DNA of 64,000 bases. It comes from Akkermansiaceae bacterium. Its GTDB lineage: Bacteria > Verrucomicrobiota > Verrucomicrobiia > Verrucomicrobiales > Akkermansiaceae. The stretch is from the NCBI GenBank assembly GCA_013041925.1, contig JABDRB010000003.1, forward strand, positions 62,001 to 126,000. The letters are read 5' to 3'. Made by a program: the position numbers and the translations under genes. A model generated the notes under the pieces. It saw nothing but the letters and a program-made list of their open reading frames with translations, had not been told where the DNA came from and did not search any database. Below, piece after piece: positions 27,837 to 37,341 of this stretch. Position 1 is the first letter of the stretch, and each line of letters starts with the position of its first letter.

Positions 27837-28592
27837 TCAGGGGCGGTTCAATGGATCTTGGGTCGCGATGCATTCGATCGCCTTCACAAAATGGGCCGAG
27901 CTCCCAAGCGCGGGTGCGACACGAAGATCCTTTCCTCCTAGATGATGGGTCACGCCATGAACCGCGTTTGTTTTTTCAATCCCGAGCATCTCAGGAATAT
28001 CCCATCCCCCGTGTTGACCATCCGATAACAGATAGGGCACTACGATAACCTGGTCCCGAGTAACGATCTCCTGCCATTGCGTGACAAAAGGCTCTTCCTC
28101 GAGCCATACATCGGCGATATCCGCAAAATGCCCTTTTTCCCGTAGCCCTTGAGCGTGATCGAGTAGCGTTTGTTTCGATCGACTATTCTTTGTCGATCCG
28201 TGACCGACGAGTAACAAGCTGGTTTCCTCCGGCCTCCAATCTCCCGCGACCTTCTCCACCGCTTGGGCAATCAACTCCTGCATCATCGGGTGCGTGCCCA
28301 CGGGTGCACAGTAACGCACGGTATCAGGTAAGGAATCCAGATCGAGGAGCTGCGGGATGACTTGACGGGTAAAGTACCCTTCCGCCAGAAAATCGGGGAC
28401 AATCACAATGTGCTCGGAAATTATTTGATCGAGAGCATCCGCCACAAAAGGCTCCTCCTTCAGAAACGCACAATGAACATCAGCAAATAATCCTCCCGCC
28501 CGCATCACCTCCGCATGCATCCGGCACGAGCTTGACGATTCTGGGTGCTTTGATGACCCGTGACCGAGCAAAAGTAAGGTCGCATTTTCCAT
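27837..28592 (-). CDS. cbiX: CbiX-type sirohydrochlorin chelatase (two-domain)
   Basis: About 251 residues from the ATG at 28592. Two tandem CbiX modules are visible, each starting LLLLGHGSS/LLLVGHGST with the conserved His, and each with a later EPFV plus IVIVPDFLAEG/VIVVPYLLSDG strand. The family inserts Co2+ or Fe2+ into sirohydrochlorin; next to cysH-cysI-cysJ and cobA, iron insertion to form siroheme is the likely role. Last gene of the long locus, 8 bp after cysH. The metal cannot be proved from sequence. Confidence 0.87.
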   Translation of the reverse strand: MENATLLLLGHGSSKHPESSSSCRMHAEVMRAGGLFADVHCAFLKEEPFVADALDQIISEHIVIVPDFLAEGYFTRQVIPQLLDLDSLPDTVRYCAPVGTHPMMQELIAQAVEKVAGDWRPEETSLLLVGHGSTKNSRSKQTLLDHAQGLREKGHFADIADVWLEEEPFVTQWQEIVTRDQVIVVPYLLSDGQHGGWDIPEMLGIEKTNAVHGVTHHLGGKDLRVAPALGSSAHFVKAIECIATQDPLNRP

Positions 28593-28600
28593 GGCCACGA

Positions 28601-29329
28601 CTAAATTTGATAATCGTTTGCGTCTGAGCTCAGGTGCAGACCACACTCGTATTTTTCACCACCAAAACGGGATGACTCGGCCGATTCTCCCTCAACCACC
28701 GGTGAGGTGGAATGCCAGTCACCCATGGTTTGATACCCCTCAGCCTCGAGCGGGTGCTTCGGTAGGTTGTTGTCGTAAAAATACGCGGATACCTGCGCAT
28801 CTGCCCAATCGAGGATCGGGTAAACTTTAAGGGTGCGCTTTTGCTGCTCGATAAACTGCCTTCCAGCGCGGGTGCTCGAGTGAGATCGGCGCAAGCCGCT
28901 CACCCAAATATCGGCACCTAGATCCTGCAACGCACGGTTCATTGGCTCAATTTTATTGATCAGCCCATAACGGGCGTTGCCCTTTTCTCCCTGCTCCCAC
29001 AACCTACCATAGATGGCCTCTTGGCGCGCCGCCGAGAGCTTCGGTTGATAGACTTTGACATCCAGACTCAATCGTTCGATCAATTGCTCAGCATACTGGT
29101 ATGTTTCAGGAAACAAGTATCCAGTATCCAGCCAAACCACCGGCATCTCAGGAGCATTTTCACTCACGAGGTGAAGCATCACCGCGGCCTGAAGACCAAA
29201 GCTACTACTCAGCATCAGGCGGGAGCCAAACTGCTTGTGCATCCAGCTGATACGCTCAGGCGCCGTCATTGACTCAAAGGCGGCATTGACCTTCTCGACG
29301 TCCGCTTCGGTGTGAATCTCTCCTGTCAT
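28601..29329 (-). CDS. cysH: Phosphoadenylyl-sulfate reductase (CysH family)
   Basis: Reduces activated sulfate to sulfite, feeding the adjacent sulfite reductase. About 242 residues from the ATG at 29329; a longer frame runs back into cysI and was rejected. The PP-loop segment is LMLSSSFGLQAAVMLHL. The C-terminal redox Cys229 lies in YECGLH. The paired Cys-Cys motifs of 4Fe-4S APS reductases are absent (SGLRRSHSSTRAG instead), favouring a PAPS-type, thioredoxin-dependent enzyme. The start is 10 bp after cysI. Confidence 0.9.
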   Translation of the reverse strand: MTGEIHTEADVEKVNAAFESMTAPERISWMHKQFGSRLMLSSSFGLQAAVMLHLVSENAPEMPVVWLDTGYLFPETYQYAEQLIERLSLDVKVYQPKLSAARQEAIYGRLWEQGEKGNARYGLINKIEPMNRALQDLGADIWVSGLRRSHSSTRAGRQFIEQQKRTLKVYPILDWADAQVSAYFYDNNLPKHPLEAEGYQTMGDWHSTSPVVEGESAESSRFGGEKYECGLHLSSDANDYQI

Positions 29330-29339
29330 CACGATGATA

Positions 29340-31046
29340 CTAGCTGATGTTTTTGTGGAAATTATTACCCGCTGTCGTGGCTTTGATATACCCAGCGCGG
29401 ATAACAAAGTCGCCAAAGCGCTCGCCGTCATGGCGTTGCTTGGCGTAATCCTCGATGATCGGTGCGAGCAATGCCTTGATCTCGCCACCGGGAACTGACT
29501 CGCGATAAAGCTTATTGAGCCGCTGTCCGTAAAACCCACCACCGAGGTAAACGTTGTATTTGCCAGGTGCCTTACCGACAAAGCCGATCTCGGCGATGAA
29601 GGGTCGACCGCACCCGTTGGGGCAACCGGTCATCCGGATGGTGATCGCGTCGTGCCGCAGTCCAGACGCCTCGATACTTTCCTCGAGTTCGGTAATCAGA
29701 TCAGGCAGGTAGCGTTCGCTTTCGGCAAGCGCCAGACCACAGGTGGGCAGGGCTACACAGGCGATGGAATTCAACCGGAGAGCACTGCGTTGATGCGAAT
29801 CCATCAGCTTGTATTCCGTGAGCAAGGCATCCACCTCAGCCCTCTTTTTAGGCGTCACGTTCGCGATCATCAGGTTCTGGTTCGCCGTCAGTCGGAAGTC
29901 ACCCTTGTCGAGAATTTCAGCAATTTTCCGAAGTCCTGTCTTCATCGGGTAGGCTGGGGAATCGATCACACGTCCACCCGCAATAAACAGGTTCAAGTGG
30001 CTATTCCCATTGGCATCTTCCGTCCAGCCAAAGCGGTCGCCATTGGTATCAAATGCAAATTCGCGTGCTGGTTCCAGTTGATACCCGAGGTATTCTTCGA
30101 GCTTATCACGGAAACCATCAGGCCCCATGCGTTCGACCGTGTATTTCAATCGAGCATGTTTACGGTTAGTCCGATCACCAAAGTCGCGCTGCACCAGCAC
30201 AACCTTTTCAGCAACATCCACGGCTTTCTCGGGTGTGATAAATCCAATCACGTCGGCGAGCCTAGGGAAGGTATCTTTCTGGCCGTGGCTCATCCCCATA
30301 CCTCCCCCGACGGATACGTTATACCCGAGGATTTTTTCGTCTTCGATGATGGCAATAAACGATAGGCAATGCGCATAGATATCGACATCATTCGATGGTG
30401 GCACCGCCACCGTGATTTTAAACTTACGCGGGAGATACGTCTTTCCGTAGATCGGCTCTTCCTCTTCTTCGCTGGAGATGACTTTCTCCCCATCGAGAAA
30501 AATCTCGTGGTAGGCTCCGGTCTGAGGAAGCAGGTGTGTGCTGATATCATGCGACAACTTAAGCGCCTCGGCATGCGCCGAGCTCAGGTGTGGGTTCGGG
30601 TTACACATGACGTTGCGGTTGACATCGCCGCAGGCTGCGATGGTGTCGAGCGCGGCATCGTTGATCTCTTTGATCGTTCGCACGAGGTTACGTTTGATCA
30701 CGCCATGAAGCTGAAACGCCTGACGTGTGGTCAGTTTCAGTGTGCCATTGGCAAACTCATCCGAGAGGCGATCCATCTCCAACCACTGAGTCGGAGTCAC
30801 CACACCACCGGGCATACGCACACGAATCAAAAAGGAGTAAGCCTTTTCTAACTTCTTTTTGCGTCGACCCGCTCTGACATCGCGATCGTCCTGAAGATAC
30901 ATCCCGTGGAATTTACTCAACTGCTGACTATCGGCCGAAATCGCACCCGTGCTGACGTCGGCAAATTCCTCAGCGAGGTTACCTCGAAGGTAGTTGCTGT
31001 TTATCTTCAACGGCTCATTGGCCGAAAGTTTTTTTTCTTCGCTCAT
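29340..31046 (-). CDS. cysI: Sulfite reductase hemoprotein beta subunit
   Basis: Siroheme/4Fe-4S enzyme performing six-electron reduction of sulfite to sulfide. The 568 residues match E. coli CysI length. The four cluster cysteines are Cys430, Cys436, Cys475 and Cys479 (CVALPTCG and TGCPNGCG), with the same spacing as in E. coli. Two half-domain repeats typical of SiR are recognisable (LTTRQAFQLHGV and RLTANQNLMIANV). It is transcribed after cysJ (59 bp gap) and before cysH (10 bp). Confidence 0.97.
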   Translation of the reverse strand: MSEEKKLSANEPLKINSNYLRGNLAEEFADVSTGAISADSQQLSKFHGMYLQDDRDVRAGRRKKKLEKAYSFLIRVRMPGGVVTPTQWLEMDRLSDEFANGTLKLTTRQAFQLHGVIKRNLVRTIKEINDAALDTIAACGDVNRNVMCNPNPHLSSAHAEALKLSHDISTHLLPQTGAYHEIFLDGEKVISSEEEEEPIYGKTYLPRKFKITVAVPPSNDVDIYAHCLSFIAIIEDEKILGYNVSVGGGMGMSHGQKDTFPRLADVIGFITPEKAVDVAEKVVLVQRDFGDRTNRKHARLKYTVERMGPDGFRDKLEEYLGYQLEPAREFAFDTNGDRFGWTEDANGNSHLNLFIAGGRVIDSPAYPMKTGLRKIAEILDKGDFRLTANQNLMIANVTPKKRAEVDALLTEYKLMDSHQRSALRLNSIACVALPTCGLALAESERYLPDLITELEESIEASGLRHDAITIRMTGCPNGCGRPFIAEIGFVGKAPGKYNVYLGGGFYGQRLNKLYRESVPGGEIKALLAPIIEDYAKQRHDGERFGDFVIRAGYIKATTAGNNFHKNIS

Positions 31047-31105
31047 ATTCTTATTTCTAAATTTTCACCGACTCGCCAGAGCCGCTTCTACTTCCTACTA
31101 CCCAT

Positions 31106-32881
31106 TCAATACACATCACGCTGGTAGCGTTTCTCTTTTTTCATGTTGCTGAGATAGGCTTCAGCTTCTTCGGTTGATTGTCCACCTTGGCTGATGATGA
31201 CATCACGCAGGGTTTCATGCACACACTTGGCCATGCGCGAGGCGTCGCCACAAACGTAGATGTGCCCACCCTTTTCAAGCCACTGCCACAACTCGGCGGC
31301 ATGTTCCTCCATCTTATCTTGAACGTAAACTTTTTCGGGTTGATCGCGGGAGAATGCGACGTCGATCCGGCTCAGGCTCCCTTTTTTCAAGTAGTCCTGC
31401 CACTCAAGCTGATAGAGGAAATCTTCGTTGTAGCGTTGGTCGCCAAAAAAGAGCCAGCTATCACCCGTAACTCCCGCCGCATCGCGGTCTTCAATGAACG
31501 CGCGGAACGGAGCAATCCCCGTCCCAGGACCAACCATTATAATCGGAGTGTCCGCATTTTCTGGAAGACGGAAGTTTTTGTTGTGATGAATATACACAGA
31601 CACCTTGGCTCCCTTCGGCGCATCATCGGCTAGGAAGGTGGAGGCCACCCCCTTGCGCGATTTGTCATGCGTGTCGTAGCGCACCACAGAAACAGTTAGA
31701 TGAACTTCACCTGGATGAGCTTTCGGGCTGGAGGCAATCGAGTAAAGGCGTAATGGCAACTTACGGAGCACATCCACCAACTGCTGAGCGGTTACTTCCT
31801 TTGCTGGATACGCTTCTAATAAATCAACAATCTGACGTCCGTCCGACCATGTTTTATACGCCTCTTTCGATGAGTCATCGAGTAACTTGGCCAAGGCATC
31901 CGAACCGGATACCTCCTGCCACGCATTGGCGACTTTTCGGGAGAGTCCGGTAATATCCAGATCAACAGTCAGAGCGGTGGAAAGTGCATGCCTCCCCACA
32001 CCTTTGACTTCAACCTCGGTGTCCGCCGCGAGACCTGTCGCGTTTAAGATGGAATCGACCACATCCTCCGCGTTGCGCGGAAGCACCGCCAGCACATCAC
32101 CTGGTTCATAGGTTAAACCCGACCCCTCAAGCGAGATTTCAACGTGGTGAGTTTCTTTCCCTGATAACGCACCACTGAGAAGTTGGTTCTCGAGGATTTC
32201 CGATGGGAACGGGTTTTTCTTGTCGTAGACCGGAAGTTCGTTGGCCGCTGCGGAATAGGCCGATGATTCATCCTGCGCAGAGGCAGCACCACCCAGCTTA
32301 CTCCAGACGTCTTGCTTCCACGCTGCGAAGCTATCGTCAAAATCAACATCACAATCGACCCGATCGGCAACACGGACAGCACCTAGTTTTTCCAGCTGCG
32401 CGTCCACCTCCTTACCCGTCTGACAAAATTGATCGTAGCTGGTATCACCGAGGGCGCACACGGAAAACTCCACACCTTCCAGTGAAACACCTCCCGCCAT
32501 CAGTTGCTGGTAAAAATCTTCGGCCGCTTCAGGTGGGTCACCCTCGCCCCAGGTACTCACCACCACAAGTAAGGTGCCCACGTCCTTCAGGTCAGCTGGC
32601 GTCGACTCAGACATGTTGATCAGACTCGACTTGAAACCTTTTTGTTTCGCCGACTTAAATAACTGATCGGCAAGCTGCTCTGAATTACCGGACTCCGTGC
32701 CGTAGAGGACGGTGAGTTTGCGGTCGGTGGCAGCCGCTGGGGCTGCAGACGCGCCGCCTTGGCATCCGGCAAGGAAACCGCTGACCCAAGTGATCTGGCG
32801 GTCGTCCATAGCGCCGACAAGCGCTGCGAGTTGGCTTTTCTGCGCATCATCGAGCGGCGCGTAATCTGGAAACTTAATCAT
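31106..32881 (-). CDS. cysJ: NADPH-dependent sulfite reductase flavoprotein alpha subunit
   Basis: Transfers electrons from NADPH through FAD and FMN to CysI. The 591 residues match CysJ. Order: N-terminal segment, flavodoxin/FMN domain with LYGTESGNSEQLADQL (about 55-200), connecting and FAD domain with RLYSIASSP, and NADPH domain with MVGPGTGIAPFRAFIEDR and YVCGDASRMAKCVHETL. It starts 100 bp after the cobA-hemD gene, a gap large enough for an internal promoter. Confidence 0.97.
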   Translation of the reverse strand: MIKFPDYAPLDDAQKSQLAALVGAMDDRQITWVSGFLAGCQGGASAAPAAATDRKLTVLYGTESGNSEQLADQLFKSAKQKGFKSSLINMSESTPADLKDVGTLLVVVSTWGEGDPPEAAEDFYQQLMAGGVSLEGVEFSVCALGDTSYDQFCQTGKEVDAQLEKLGAVRVADRVDCDVDFDDSFAAWKQDVWSKLGGAASAQDESSAYSAAANELPVYDKKNPFPSEILENQLLSGALSGKETHHVEISLEGSGLTYEPGDVLAVLPRNAEDVVDSILNATGLAADTEVEVKGVGRHALSTALTVDLDITGLSRKVANAWQEVSGSDALAKLLDDSSKEAYKTWSDGRQIVDLLEAYPAKEVTAQQLVDVLRKLPLRLYSIASSPKAHPGEVHLTVSVVRYDTHDKSRKGVASTFLADDAPKGAKVSVYIHHNKNFRLPENADTPIIMVGPGTGIAPFRAFIEDRDAAGVTGDSWLFFGDQRYNEDFLYQLEWQDYLKKGSLSRIDVAFSRDQPEKVYVQDKMEEHAAELWQWLEKGGHIYVCGDASRMAKCVHETLRDVIISQGGQSTEEAEAYLSNMKKEKRYQRDVY

Positions 32882-32981
32882 TAGTTAATTTATAAACTTA
32901 CTCCTGTTCACGGGCAAGATGTCTTCATTTTCTGCGGTTGCAAGCGAAAACACCTCAAATGTTGATTGTTGACGTCATGGA

Positions 32982-34484
32982 TTAGCTGAATTGCTCGACG
33001 ATGGCTTTGACAAGCCCCTCGATACTGTGGTCATTGGCTTCGATGACATCTTTCTGGCCGAGTTCTTTAAGCTTGGCGGTGGTGATGGGTCCGATACTCG
33101 CGGCTTGGCAGCCGTTGGGCCAATCAAGGCTCAAATCGTGAAAATACTTTGCGGTTGATGAGCTAGTAAAAGTAACGAGGTCAGCGCCCTCCTCGGCGAA
33201 GCGTTCGGCGGCCCCCGTGGGATCATCGGTTTCGGCCTCGATCCGGTAAGCGATGCATTCGTCAACAATCGCGTGCTGTTCTTCCAAGCCTTTCCTGAGG
33301 ATGTCGCGGGCATTTTCGGGTCGCACCCAGAGGATGGTTTGGTTCTCGATGTCCTCATGCTCTTGGAATGCCTCCAGTAAACCCTCCGCGATATGGCGCT
33401 CTGGGATGAGGTCGGCCGCAAACCGGTAGCCCTTAATGGCGGCCGCGGTGCCGGGTCCGACAGCGGCAATTTTCACCCCACCGATGCTGCGGGCATCAGC
33501 GTAGGTGGCAAAAAAGGCATCGAAGAAGCGACGCACGCCATTCGTGCTGCTAAAAACGAGCCAATCGTAGCTATGCACAGCTGTAACGCCCTCGGCGAAC
33601 TCACGTTTATTCACAGGGTCCTCGATCCGGAGAACGGGAAGCTCCAGCACATCCGCGCCGAGTGCGGTGAGTCCGTTAACCAACCCACTCGCCTGTTCTT
33701 GGCTACGCGTGACCACAATACGTTTCCCCTGAAGCGGGCGATTTTCATACCATTCTATATTTTTCATTTCGTTGATGATGTTTCCGATGACACCCACGGC
33801 GGGCGCCTTAAATTGTTGTTCTTCGGCGATATCGGCGATGTCCGCCAAGGTGCCTGTGATGGTTTTTTGTCGACCGGTCGTTGCCCAGCGTGTCAACGCA
33901 ATCGGGGTTGTTGCATCTGCACCGTGCTCGATCAGCTGACCTGTAATATCACGGAGTCTCGCCACGCCCATCAGAAAAACCTTGGTTCCAGGAGTTTGGG
34001 CGAGCAGAGCGTAATCGACCACGCCCTCGGTCTTGTCATCCGCCTCATGACCGGAAAACAAGGTGAGCTGTGAGCCGTAGTCGCGGTGTGTCAATGGGAT
34101 GCCTGCATACGCAGGGCCTGCAAATGCCGACGAGATCCCGGGGACAATTTCAAATTTGAGCCCAGCGGCTGCGAGCACGGCGGCTTCTTCACCGCCGCGA
34201 CCAAAAATCATCGGGTCACCGCCCTTCAGCCGGACAACCACCTTTCCCTCACTGACTTTTTCCACCAGCAGCGCGTTGATTTGATCTTGCGGCATCTTGT
34301 GATTAGCCGCGCGTTTACCCACGTCAATTTTTTCGCACCCCGTTTTTGCCCAGGTAAGCAGCTCGGCGCTACTCAAGGCATCGTAAACCAGCACATCGGC
34401 GTGCTCGATACATTGACGTGCCTTCAGGGTCACCAGTCCAGGGTCACCCGGCCCAGCCCCTGCCAAATAACAGATCCCACTCAT
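32982..34484 (-). CDS. cobA-hemD: Fused uroporphyrinogen-III C-methyltransferase / uroporphyrinogen-III synthase
   Basis: A 500-residue bifunctional protein. Residues about 1-245 are SUMT (CobA): YLAGAGPGDPGLVTLKA, VVRLKGGDPMIFGRGGEEA, and FLMGVARL. Residues about 250-500 are HemD: GKRIVVTRSQEQASGLV at its start and LVTFTSSSTAKYF near the end. HemD cyclises hydroxymethylbilane to uro'gen III and CobA methylates it to precorrin-2, channelling tetrapyrrole toward siroheme. Its ATG overlaps the end of hemC by 4 bp. Precorrin-2 dehydrogenase is not in the window. Confidence 0.95.
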   Translation of the reverse strand: MSGICYLAGAGPGDPGLVTLKARQCIEHADVLVYDALSSAELLTWAKTGCEKIDVGKRAANHKMPQDQINALLVEKVSEGKVVVRLKGGDPMIFGRGGEEAAVLAAAGLKFEIVPGISSAFAGPAYAGIPLTHRDYGSQLTLFSGHEADDKTEGVVDYALLAQTPGTKVFLMGVARLRDITGQLIEHGADATTPIALTRWATTGRQKTITGTLADIADIAEEQQFKAPAVGVIGNIINEMKNIEWYENRPLQGKRIVVTRSQEQASGLVNGLTALGADVLELPVLRIEDPVNKREFAEGVTAVHSYDWLVFSSTNGVRRFFDAFFATYADARSIGGVKIAAVGPGTAAAIKGYRFAADLIPERHIAEGLLEAFQEHEDIENQTILWVRPENARDILRKGLEEQHAIVDECIAYRIEAETDDPTGAAERFAEEGADLVTFTSSSTAKYFHDLSLDWPNGCQAASIGPITTAKLKELGQKDVIEANDHSIEGLVKAIVEQFS

Positions 34485-35407
34485 GACAAGTTTGTAAATA
34501 ATTCACCCGCTACCTGTTCAGGTTCAGCCGCCAGACCGGTTGAAGTCGACTCCATAGGGCCAGACTCATCCGTCTCATCAAAGACCCTGCCGGCCATGTG
34601 AAGCTGATCATCCTTAATCCATGAACGCACGCCGACTGGGGTGTGACAACCGGCATCAAGCAACCTCAGAAATTCACGTTCGGCACGCAGCAGCAACATC
34701 GATTCCCCGTGGGTGATCGCCTCAATACAAGCACGGGCATCGTCATGATCACTCCGTATCTCAAAGCCTACAATCCCCTGCCCTGCGGCGGGAAGAAAGG
34801 TATCGGCGTCTAAGACTCCAGCACGGAGCCCACCATCCCATTCGCGGGTAAGATCATAACCCAGCCTCACAAGACCCGCCTCAGCCAACATGATGGCATC
34901 GAGTTCGTCCTGGTCTCTGAGCTTCTGCAATCGAGTCGGCACATTGCCTCGGATATCAACCAGATGCAGGTCAGGACGAAGCCACAACAACTGCCGCTGA
35001 CGGCGCACGCTTCCCGTGGCCACCGTCGCCCCCTCAGGAAGCTCATCGAGACCACCCGCCTTTGAGCAAACGAGCACATCGGCCACCGGCGCACGCTCGA
35101 GCGCTCCCACGATCTCAAATGGCTCAGCCAACACGGTTGGCACATCCTTCATGCTATGCACCGCCAGATCGATCTCACCTTGTTCCAGCGCCACTTCAAG
35201 CTCCTTGGTGAAAACACCTTTATCCAATACGCCTTCCACTTTAGCCACCTGGGAGAGGGGCACATCGGTGCGGCGATCGCCTGTCGTCGTGATCACCTTA
35301 CGGATTATTTCACGATCTGGAAATGCGCGACGCAGTGCGGCCTCCGTCATTTCCGCTTGGGCCAATGCCAAGGCGCTTCCGCGTGTTCCTACAATCAGTG
35401 GTTTCAT
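34481..35407 (-). CDS. hemC: Porphobilinogen deaminase (hydroxymethylbilane synthase)
   Basis: Polymerises four porphobilinogens to hydroxymethylbilane. The 308 residues match the family. Dipyrromethane cofactor is carried on Cys254 in LLDAGCHTPVGV; catalytic Asp88 is in VHSMKDVP; TGSVRRQRQL and IRGNVPTRL are substrate-binding arginine motifs. It starts 9 bp after hemA and overlaps cobA-hemD by 4 bp, so these three are almost certainly co-transcribed. Confidence 0.97.
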   Translation of the reverse strand: MKPLIVGTRGSALALAQAEMTEAALRRAFPDREIIRKVITTTGDRRTDVPLSQVAKVEGVLDKGVFTKELEVALEQGEIDLAVHSMKDVPTVLAEPFEIVGALERAPVADVLVCSKAGGLDELPEGATVATGSVRRQRQLLWLRPDLHLVDIRGNVPTRLQKLRDQDELDAIMLAEAGLVRLGYDLTREWDGGLRAGVLDADTFLPAAGQGIVGFEIRSDHDDARACIEAITHGESMLLLRAEREFLRLLDAGCHTPVGVRSWIKDDQLHMAGRVFDETDESGPMESTSTGLAAEPEQVAGELFTNLS

Positions 35408-35416
35408 AGCTGCTCG

Positions 35417-36397
35417 TTATAATTCTTCGGCAATCATTGCCTCACAAATCGCGACCTGTTGGGCGCGCGACTCCCTCGCCTGACTAGCAAGATGTTGCAA
35501 TTTATCCATATCGTAAAGATAGACTTCCTCGATTTCACCCGCGGCAGATTCAATGTCACGCGGCACGGCAATATCGATCAAAAATAAGGGTTTATATTTG
35601 CGCATCCGGCGGACCGACTCAATCTGTGCTGCGTGCAGAACAGGCTCGGACGCTCCCGTCGATGACACCACCACATCTACCTTTTCCAAGGTTTCCTCCC
35701 ACGCGTTAAACGGCACCGCCTGACCACCAAGTTCACCAGCGAGCGCCTGCGCACGTTCGAGCGATCGATTGGTAACGGTCAGTTCACTCGCACCGCGTGA
35801 CATCATACTTTGCGCGACCTGGCGGCTCATTTCTCCGGCACCGATGACCATGACATGACTCCCTTTGAGTCGACCAAAAATCTTTTCGGCCAGATCCACT
35901 GCCACACTTCCAACGGAGGTCGGCCCGACTTGGATACGGGTATTCGTCCGGATCCGTTTCCCTACGGTAAAGGATTTTTGAAACAGCTTGTTGAGCTTGC
36001 CCTTGGTGGCACCTGCCCCCAAGGCTTGTTGATACGCCTGCTTCACTTGCCCAAAAATCTCAGTCTCACCCAGCACCATCGAGTCAAGACCACAGACGAG
36101 TCGAAACAAATGCCGTTTGGCCTCATCACCCGTCTTCTGGTAGAGATACTGCATTTCTTGATCATCACGCCCCTCGGCAAGGTGCGACTGCAGGATCTCC
36201 AATCCCATCTGTCGGTCCTCCGCCGCGATGTAGATCTCCATGCGGTTGCAAGTCGATAGCACAACGCTCTCAGCGATGGTGCTCAATGCGGTGATCTCTT
36301 TCGCTCGGGATCCCAACTGCTCGGCAGGCACCGCAAAATGCTCCCTCACCTCGACGGGTGCGGTTTCATGATTCAGCCCTATACATATCAACTCCAT
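35417..36397 (-). CDS. hemA: Glutamyl-tRNA reductase (short form)
   Basis: First committed enzyme of C5-pathway tetrapyrrole synthesis; reduces Glu-tRNA to glutamate-1-semialdehyde. Catalytic Cys50 is in LSTCNRMEIY; GLDSMVLGETEIFGQVKQAY and the NADPH-binding VMVIGAGEMS follow. At 326 residues it is about 90 shorter than E. coli-type enzymes: the sequence stops soon after VYLYDMDKL, so most of the C-terminal dimerisation domain is missing. The stop is followed cleanly by hemC, so an assembly frameshift is not obvious. It starts immediately after hemX. Confidence 0.93.
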   Translation of the reverse strand: MELICIGLNHETAPVEVREHFAVPAEQLGSRAKEITALSTIAESVVLSTCNRMEIYIAAEDRQMGLEILQSHLAEGRDDQEMQYLYQKTGDEAKRHLFRLVCGLDSMVLGETEIFGQVKQAYQQALGAGATKGKLNKLFQKSFTVGKRIRTNTRIQVGPTSVGSVAVDLAEKIFGRLKGSHVMVIGAGEMSRQVAQSMMSRGASELTVTNRSLERAQALAGELGGQAVPFNAWEETLEKVDVVVSSTGASEPVLHAAQIESVRRMRKYKPLFLIDIAVPRDIESAAGEIEEVYLYDMDKLQHLASQARESRAQQVAICEAMIAEEL

Positions 36398-37168
36398 CTA
36401 TTTTAACAGTGGAAAAATCATCAGCGAAAGAACGAATAAAGCCACCGTCAAGATAGCCAACTTCCGAGCGGGCATCCCTCGCCGCCACTCGACTCCAATC
36501 AGGATCCCGTAGGCGAACCATTGTCCAAGTGCCACGATCAGGTGCCTACCCAAACCATCCGCCTTCTCCATCACCAACCCACAAACCAACCCGATAGTCA
36601 GCAGCCCGAAGCCGAGAATCAACAAGCGCCTTACCACATCACTCAGCTCTCGCGCCGGCGGCAAATTACGAAATAACCCCGCCCCCATCTGGGCTTCTTT
36701 CAGCTGTCGATTCAACACCAAGAACATCACACCAGCCACCGCAGCCAATCCCAAGGATCCGTAAGCCAAGACCGAGAATGCCGCATGCCCTTCACGCCAA
36801 GCATCCATCGTATCCGCATGATGAGGAGAAACCTCCAACATCCCAGGCACCAGCGCCATCGTGAGCAAAAAACAAACCAAGGGCGCCGTAAAAACACCCA
36901 GCAACGACAATCGGTAAACCGACCCCACCACCATATAAAACATCGTCAACGACCACGCAGAGAAAAGTAGAATTTCCCCCGTATCCCCCAGCGGACAACT
37001 ACCACGAAGCTCACTGCGCATCCCCAACACCACCAATTGGGTCAAAAATGAACATAACATCCAAAGAACCGTCCAGCGCGATCGATGACCGCGATACACA
37101 TACCCAGCTCCTTGCACAGCCGCAATGGCTGCCAAAACTAAGGCTAAAATAAGAATCCACCTGTCCAT
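36398..37168 (-). CDS. CcsA/HemX-like cytochrome c assembly membrane protein
   Basis: About 256 residues from the ATG at 37168; an extension to 37264 lies in poorly coding sequence. Seven to eight transmembrane helices. The CytC_asm-like features are the histidines in SPHHAD and WREGHAAFSVLAYG and the late segment GLVCGLVMEK. Members next to hemA are called HemX and are thought to act on heme delivery or GluTR levels; the true role here is inferred. First gene of the locus, its TAG abutting the hemA ATG. Confidence 0.82.
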   Translation of the reverse strand: MDRWILILALVLAAIAAVQGAGYVYRGHRSRWTVLWMLCSFLTQLVVLGMRSELRGSCPLGDTGEILLFSAWSLTMFYMVVGSVYRLSLLGVFTAPLVCFLLTMALVPGMLEVSPHHADTMDAWREGHAAFSVLAYGSLGLAAVAGVMFLVLNRQLKEAQMGAGLFRNLPPARELSDVVRRLLILGFGLLTIGLVCGLVMEKADGLGRHLIVALGQWFAYGILIGVEWRRGMPARKLAILTVALFVLSLMIFPLLK

Positions 37169-37341
37169 GGCGGCCCGTCTCATGCACACGCATCCGCAGA
37201 AATTCAAGCCGATATGTGACAGATGACTGCCAGACACGGGAAAAAACCACACAAATGCGTTCATTTCCCTCTCTCATTCGCCCCCATTGCATCCAAAGGC
37301 TTCCCATCGTCACGATTTAATGATAGTTGACGCCATCACGC

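Follow-up and report, generated by a model that had tools for sequence, protein, structure and literature searches.

According to two published sources (PMC6399207, PMC7242693), glutamyl-tRNA reductase (GluTR) forms a V-shaped dimer, and this shape has been proposed to accommodate HemL so that glutamate-1-semialdehyde can be channelled. In the window analysed here, a 64,000-nucleotide stretch of a contig from an Akkermansiaceae bacterium, the hemA gene encodes a GluTR of only 326 residues, and the part that is missing is the dimerisation domain. Has a full-length gene been cut by an error or a mutation, or is this a natural compact enzyme, and, in the latter case, how would such an enzyme work? 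We found no description of a GluTR without a dimerisation domain in the Verrucomicrobiota in the openly licensed literature searched.

The hemA locus and the end of its product

The genes and protein features on which the argument rests are as follows, in the direction of transcription.

36398..37264, minus strand: HemX/CcsB-like membrane protein, upstream of hemA with a gap of 0 nt (PF01578, 63 bits, over the cut-off)
35417..36397, minus strand: hemA, compact glutamyl-tRNA reductase, 326 aa (open reading frame; TIGR01035, 336.6 bits, over the cut-off; sole GlutR_N match in the genome)
35939..36382, minus strand: GlutR_N catalytic domain of HemA, residues 6-153 (PF05201, 168.1 bits, full profile, 1-151 of 151)
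36248-36250, minus strand: codon for Cys50 of HemA, in the GlutR_N domain
35492..35896, minus strand: NADPH-binding Rossmann domain of the Shikimate_DH type, residues 168-302 (PF01488, 145.2 bits, profile 1-137 of 138)
35420..35509, minus strand: stub of the spinal helix, residues 297-326 (AlphaFold2 helix 297-325, pLDDT 83-94 by block; comparison with the full-length relative L074)
35408..35416, minus strand: gap of 9 nt separating the hemA stop from the hemC start
34481..35407, minus strand: hemC, hydroxymethylbilane synthase, the next gene (TIGR00212, 280.1 bits, over the cut-off)
32982..34484, minus strand: fused CobA-HemD, uroporphyrinogen-III C-methyltransferase / uroporphyrinogen-III synthase (NF004790, 289.8 bits, over the cut-off)

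The gene order on this one strand is hemX-hemA-hemC-cobA/hemD, with gaps of 0, 9, and -4 nt. The HemX/CcsB-like protein reaches 64.1 bits against TIGR03144, below the cut-off of 187.6, and the HemD half of the fusion (residues 253-498) reaches 120.2 bits against NF004593, below the cut-off of 275. Downstream of the hem genes, the stretch 27837-34484 on the minus strand holds cysJ and cysI (assimilatory sulfite reductase), cysH, and a CbiX-like gene, and is a cluster for siroheme and assimilatory sulfite reduction; siroheme is the cofactor used by sulfite reductase. A cysJ-like gene is also found downstream of hemA in L032, one of the nearest relatives, and most of the other loci end before that point.

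The hemA reading frame opens with ATG and closes with TAA. The original prediction held that the catalytic and NADPH-binding domains are intact and that about 90 residues are missing from the C-terminus, and both statements are borne out: the two domain profiles are matched over the ranges listed above, and the TIGR01035 model (cut-off 209.55 bits) aligns residues 4-326 of the protein with positions 2-326 of its 416, which leaves a C-terminal deficit of about 90 positions. A Pfam search of the protein gave no match to GlutR_dimer (PF00745) at E<=1. In L074 the GlutR_dimer domain starts at residue 320, so that the truncation of the window HemA falls near the Pfam domain boundary. The prediction had placed the end directly after the YLYDMDKL strand (residues 293-300), and here it was mistaken, because 26 further residues, helical in the model, carry the chain to residue 326.

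The AlphaFold2 model of the window HemA (mean pLDDT 90.2, pTM 0.67, alignment of 42 rows) has its terminal helix at residues 297-325, and that of the full-length L074 (mean pLDDT 87.4, alignment of 17 rows) has a helix at 300-338 followed by others at 342-367, 373-401, and 407-417. From this comparison, the window HemA is predicted to retain about 29 residues, or about three quarters, of the spinal helix and to lack the three helices that follow. The conserved hydrophobic positions of the stub helix are 300, 303, 315, 318, 321, 322, and 326; full-length HemA shares most of them, and they may merely pack on the catalytic domain.

Relatives, distribution, and ancestry of the short form

Of the three frames in the 400 nt around the hemA stop, two are riddled with stop codons and the other consists of the end of hemA and then hemC, so HemA is not continued in any other frame, and the 9-nt gap before hemC leaves no room there for the missing domain. 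The original prediction had itself raised the possibility that close relatives possess a full-length HemA and that the end seen here is a sequencing frameshift. The four nearest relatives (L031-L034), however, are 88, 76, 76, and 75% identical to the window HemA, and all are 326 aa long with the stop at the same place. The nearest named relatives belong to the Akkermansiaceae, Rubritalea, and Roseibacillus. Compared with L031, the window gene has a dN of 0.073 and a dS of 1.227 over its whole length, and a dN of 0.136 and a dS of 0.705 over codons 297-326; compared with L032-L034, dS is saturated and dN is 0.17-0.20 for the whole gene and 0.25-0.27 for the tail. The hemA gene is under purifying selection, and these values indicate that the tail is constrained as well, less strongly than the rest of the protein.

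Among 384 genomes of the class Verrucomicrobiia, GlutR_N was found in 372 (E<=1e-5) and GlutR_dimer in none (E<=0.001); when only the genomes with at least 90% completeness and at most 5% contamination are counted, the figures are 330 and 0 of 332. The various GlutR_dimer searches matched 9 to 11 of 14 control genomes. When 13 genomes with the short form (including Rubritalea marina, two Roseibacillus species, and the Omnitrophota genome of L102) were searched individually, none had GlutR_dimer over the cut-off, and all three full-length controls did. These counts make the truncation of HemA an old, class-wide trait, and the short HemA appears to be the rule throughout the Verrucomicrobiia. 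That a frameshift in sequencing or assembly, or a recent nonsense mutation, has cut a full-length HemA is thus as good as impossible, the error being refuted by the stops of the relatives, the class-wide absence of the domain, the content of the reading frames, and purifying selection. In other words, the window HemA is truly a natural compact variant without the dimer-forming tail.

We collected 160 HemA-like proteins from the loci, 156 of them complete. Counted from Asp298 on, the tail has at most 72 residues in 98 of these (including 9 divergent, low-scoring proteins) and at least 117 in 57, the remaining one being a fusion (L138); apart from this fusion, nothing lies between 72 and 117 residues, and the distribution is bimodal. 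The residues beyond aligned position 326 number 0 to 37 (median 10) in 69 complete rows of the Verrucomicrobiia type and 88 to 123 in the 57 long ones. The fusion L138 (G004:C50) is a short HemA that continues in frame into an ABC ATPase (GlutR_N 6-155, Shikimate_DH 173-308, ABC_tran 374-514), and is either a fusion or a case of a lost stop codon. It should also be mentioned that the HemA tail of L079, labelled Akkermansia muciniphila, looks like that of Pedosphaera (L071), and the tail of L103, labelled Klebsiella pneumoniae, like that of a deltaproteobacterial bin (L107); judging from these tails, both are probably mislabelled metagenome bins.

A sample of 387 genomes from the phylum gave GlutR_N in 243 and, over the cut-off, GlutR_dimer in 26, all 26 of which lie outside the class. 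The other classes of the phylum have full-length HemA together with scattered short ones (L025, L144, L145, L147, and L163). GlutR_N was not found at E<=1e-5 in 144 of the 387 genomes, many of them nearly complete (for example, G002, G006, G009, and G011), which suggests that this tetrapyrrole route may be missing from entire groups outside the class. Among the Omnitrophota, GlutR_N occurs in 78 of 145 sampled genomes. The 20 complete HemA proteins examined there (L102 and 19 from the 20 best-scoring loci fetched) comprise 15 short and 5 long ones. The suggestion of a lineage-specific compact form is therefore right for the class, with its 0 and 372 of 384 genomes, and too narrow in confining the form to one lineage, since it occurs in the Omnitrophota and in other classes as well.

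The ancestry of the short form was followed on a quick tree with SH-aLRT support only, for which 147 rows, left after those that scored below 250 and those that were incomplete had been removed, were thinned to 86; the columns ran to residue 302, so that the trait region was left out. The 26 short rows of the Verrucomicrobiia form one group (SH-aLRT 90, not starred), and the short forms of the other classes of the phylum sit on separate branches. The label of short or long changes at least five times on the best tree, and at least two of these changes are forced by starred branches. The tree itself gives no direction, and the simpler reading is that the domain was lost rather than gained, because nearly all distant relatives, including those of Methanopyrus kandleri and Arabidopsis, are full length. 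The loss of the dimerisation domain would then be old, dating from the base of the Verrucomicrobiia or earlier.

Activity and possible mode of action

The residues T49, C50, N51, R52, and E54 are identical in every one of the 71 short and 36 long homologues in the alignment, and H96, G110, E111, and Q117 are invariant in an alignment of 42 rows (A1). C50 of the TCNR motif and H96 of the N-terminal domain are the established catalytic residues of GluTR. The source genome, with a completeness of 98.07%, holds a single GlutR_N match, that of the window HemA, which rules out a second, full-length HemA; a detached GlutR_dimer was not found elsewhere in the genome at E<=10, in a search in which 11 of 14 control genomes matched. 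HemL (611.4 bits) and HemE (368.7 bits) are present, both over their cut-offs. No 5-aminolevulinate synthase over the cut-off was found in the genome (best match 289.4 bits, cut-off 338.55), and the idea that HemA is a relic beside such a synthase is ruled out as well. With HemL and HemE present, no synthase over the cut-off, and a single HemA, the compact HemA most likely supplies all of the tetrapyrroles, and the enzyme is very likely active. We hold with considerable confidence that it is a genuine, functional compact GluTR and that its C-terminal dimerisation domain disappeared long ago.

How would such an enzyme work? The formation of a thioester on a Cys residue and its reduction by NADPH are given as the chemistry of GluTR in PMC7242693. 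In the compact form, the thiol domain with Cys50 would take the glutamyl group from Glu-tRNA, and the NADPH domain would reduce the thioester. The three absent helices would be those that join both arms of the classical V-shaped dimer. Each arm has its own full active site, so the shortened chain could work alone, provided that one arm suffices, and each protomer would hand glutamate-1-semialdehyde to HemL singly. The openly licensed literature searched yielded no measurements of activity or oligomeric state for a short GluTR. We lean slightly towards the view that the short HemA acts as a monomer or as a protomer tethered to HemL, and not as a new homodimer. The published docking model for HemL, which uses the V-shaped GluTR dimer (PMC6399207), speaks against this view. 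A wider statement, that the Verrucomicrobiia and, separately, many Omnitrophota make all of their heme and siroheme via a domain-less monomeric GluTR, working alone or paired only by the HemL dimer, is put forward more tentatively, at a little short of even confidence.

Three other arrangements can be imagined. In the first, which overlaps with the preferred reading, the HemL homodimer is the scaffold: a pair of short HemA protomers would bind to it in a 2:2 complex, with no contact between the two HemA chains, a geometry that we infer. HemL is present with an ordinary score, and complexes of HemA and HemL have been isolated for full-length enzymes, according to PMC6399207; as the specific arrangement, the 2:2 complex is rather unlikely.

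Somewhat less probable again is a homodimer that uses the stub helix or some other face of the protein. In the short forms this helix is strongly conserved, with hydrophobic positions running along it, and Cys318 (codon 35444-35446 in the window) is present in 67 of 70 short rows of the Verrucomicrobiia type versus 5 of 57 long rows, 49 of which have Ala. On the other hand, the helix ends at residue 326 in the window HemA and its nearest relatives, so that little of it extends past the catalytic unit, and Cys318 cannot be tied to the short form independently of ancestry, given that full-length Omnitrophota carry this residue too. When the tree was used to look for residues common to the short forms (Cys318 and Gly158 among others), Cys318 was present in a fraction of 0.88 of the 26 Verrucomicrobiia rows, 0.61 of the 18 other short rows, and 0.12 of the 42 long rows, occurring in Omnitrophota of both lengths; only two independent pairs fall on starred branches, too few for significance. 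The link of Cys318 with the short form is inseparable from ancestry and serves as a lead only.

Finally, HemX or another membrane partner might take over the dimerising role; the original prediction had named HemX or another partner. HemX is encoded directly upstream and adjoins hemA in all 44 short-form loci of the Verrucomicrobiia that were examined, but among the 34 loci counted as long it is also the neighbour of HemA in 10 (9 of 33 once the incomplete L101 is set aside), and no HemX match was obtained at L102, an Omnitrophota locus with the short form. According to PMC5801465, 106 of the 113 genomes with hemX, from different phyla, have this gene beside gtrR, and HemX acts on the abundance of GtrR. 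Because HemX is a neighbour of full-length HemA as well, the proposal finds no support, and we regard this partnership as very improbable.

If the wider statement above is right, the V-shaped dimer would be dispensable for catalysis, for the recognition of Glu-tRNA, and for the transfer of the unstable semialdehyde to HemL. Since the class as a whole naturally lacks precisely the dimerisation module, evolved enzymes of about 326-365 residues offer a direct test of whether the V shape is needed.

Comparison with known glutamyl-tRNA reductases

The best structural match of the model is the GluTR of M. kandleri (1gpj), with residues 1-326 placed on 2-315 of the 399 residues of the chain (Z 32.5, rmsd 5.0, 313 aligned); the high rmsd probably reflects differing domain angles. 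The NADPH domain alone matches the nucleotide-binding domain of the Thermoplasma volcanium GluTR (3oj0; Z 18.3, rmsd 2.0, 138 aligned). In the M. kandleri enzyme and in GluTR1 of Arabidopsis (4n7r, 5che, and 5yjl), the catalytic domain, the NADPH domain, and the start of the spinal helix align along the entire window HemA, but these structures go on into the C-terminal dimerisation domain, whereas the window HemA does not. In plants, the dimerisation domain also binds the regulator FLU, as stated in PMC4726326.

Short GluTRs are already known as sequences, as the 338 positions of the NF001909 (PRK00676) model indicate. This model, which we take to be that of the chlamydial GluTR, is too short to include the dimerisation domain and resembles the window HemA in this respect. 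However, the window HemA scores only 86.9 bits against it, far below the cut-off of 478, and TIGR01035, at 336.6 bits, fits much better.

A further likeness is found in a group of long proteins from other classes of the phylum whose GluTR half is divergent (L157-L161 and L164-L166) and which also end soon after the NADPH domain, with tails of 37-49 residues (L158 being judged by Pfam, and L157, L159-L161, and L164-L166 by length and score only). L158 has no GlutR_dimer match in Pfam, like the window HemA, and, unlike it, carries an N-terminal NAD_binding_7 domain of the kind found in precorrin-2 dehydrogenases. Three genomes (G087, G209, and G216) carry this divergent type in addition to an ordinary GluTR. 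With GlutR_N E-values of about 1e-22 to 1e-29, the group is far more diverged than the window HemA, which shares with it the early end of the chain.
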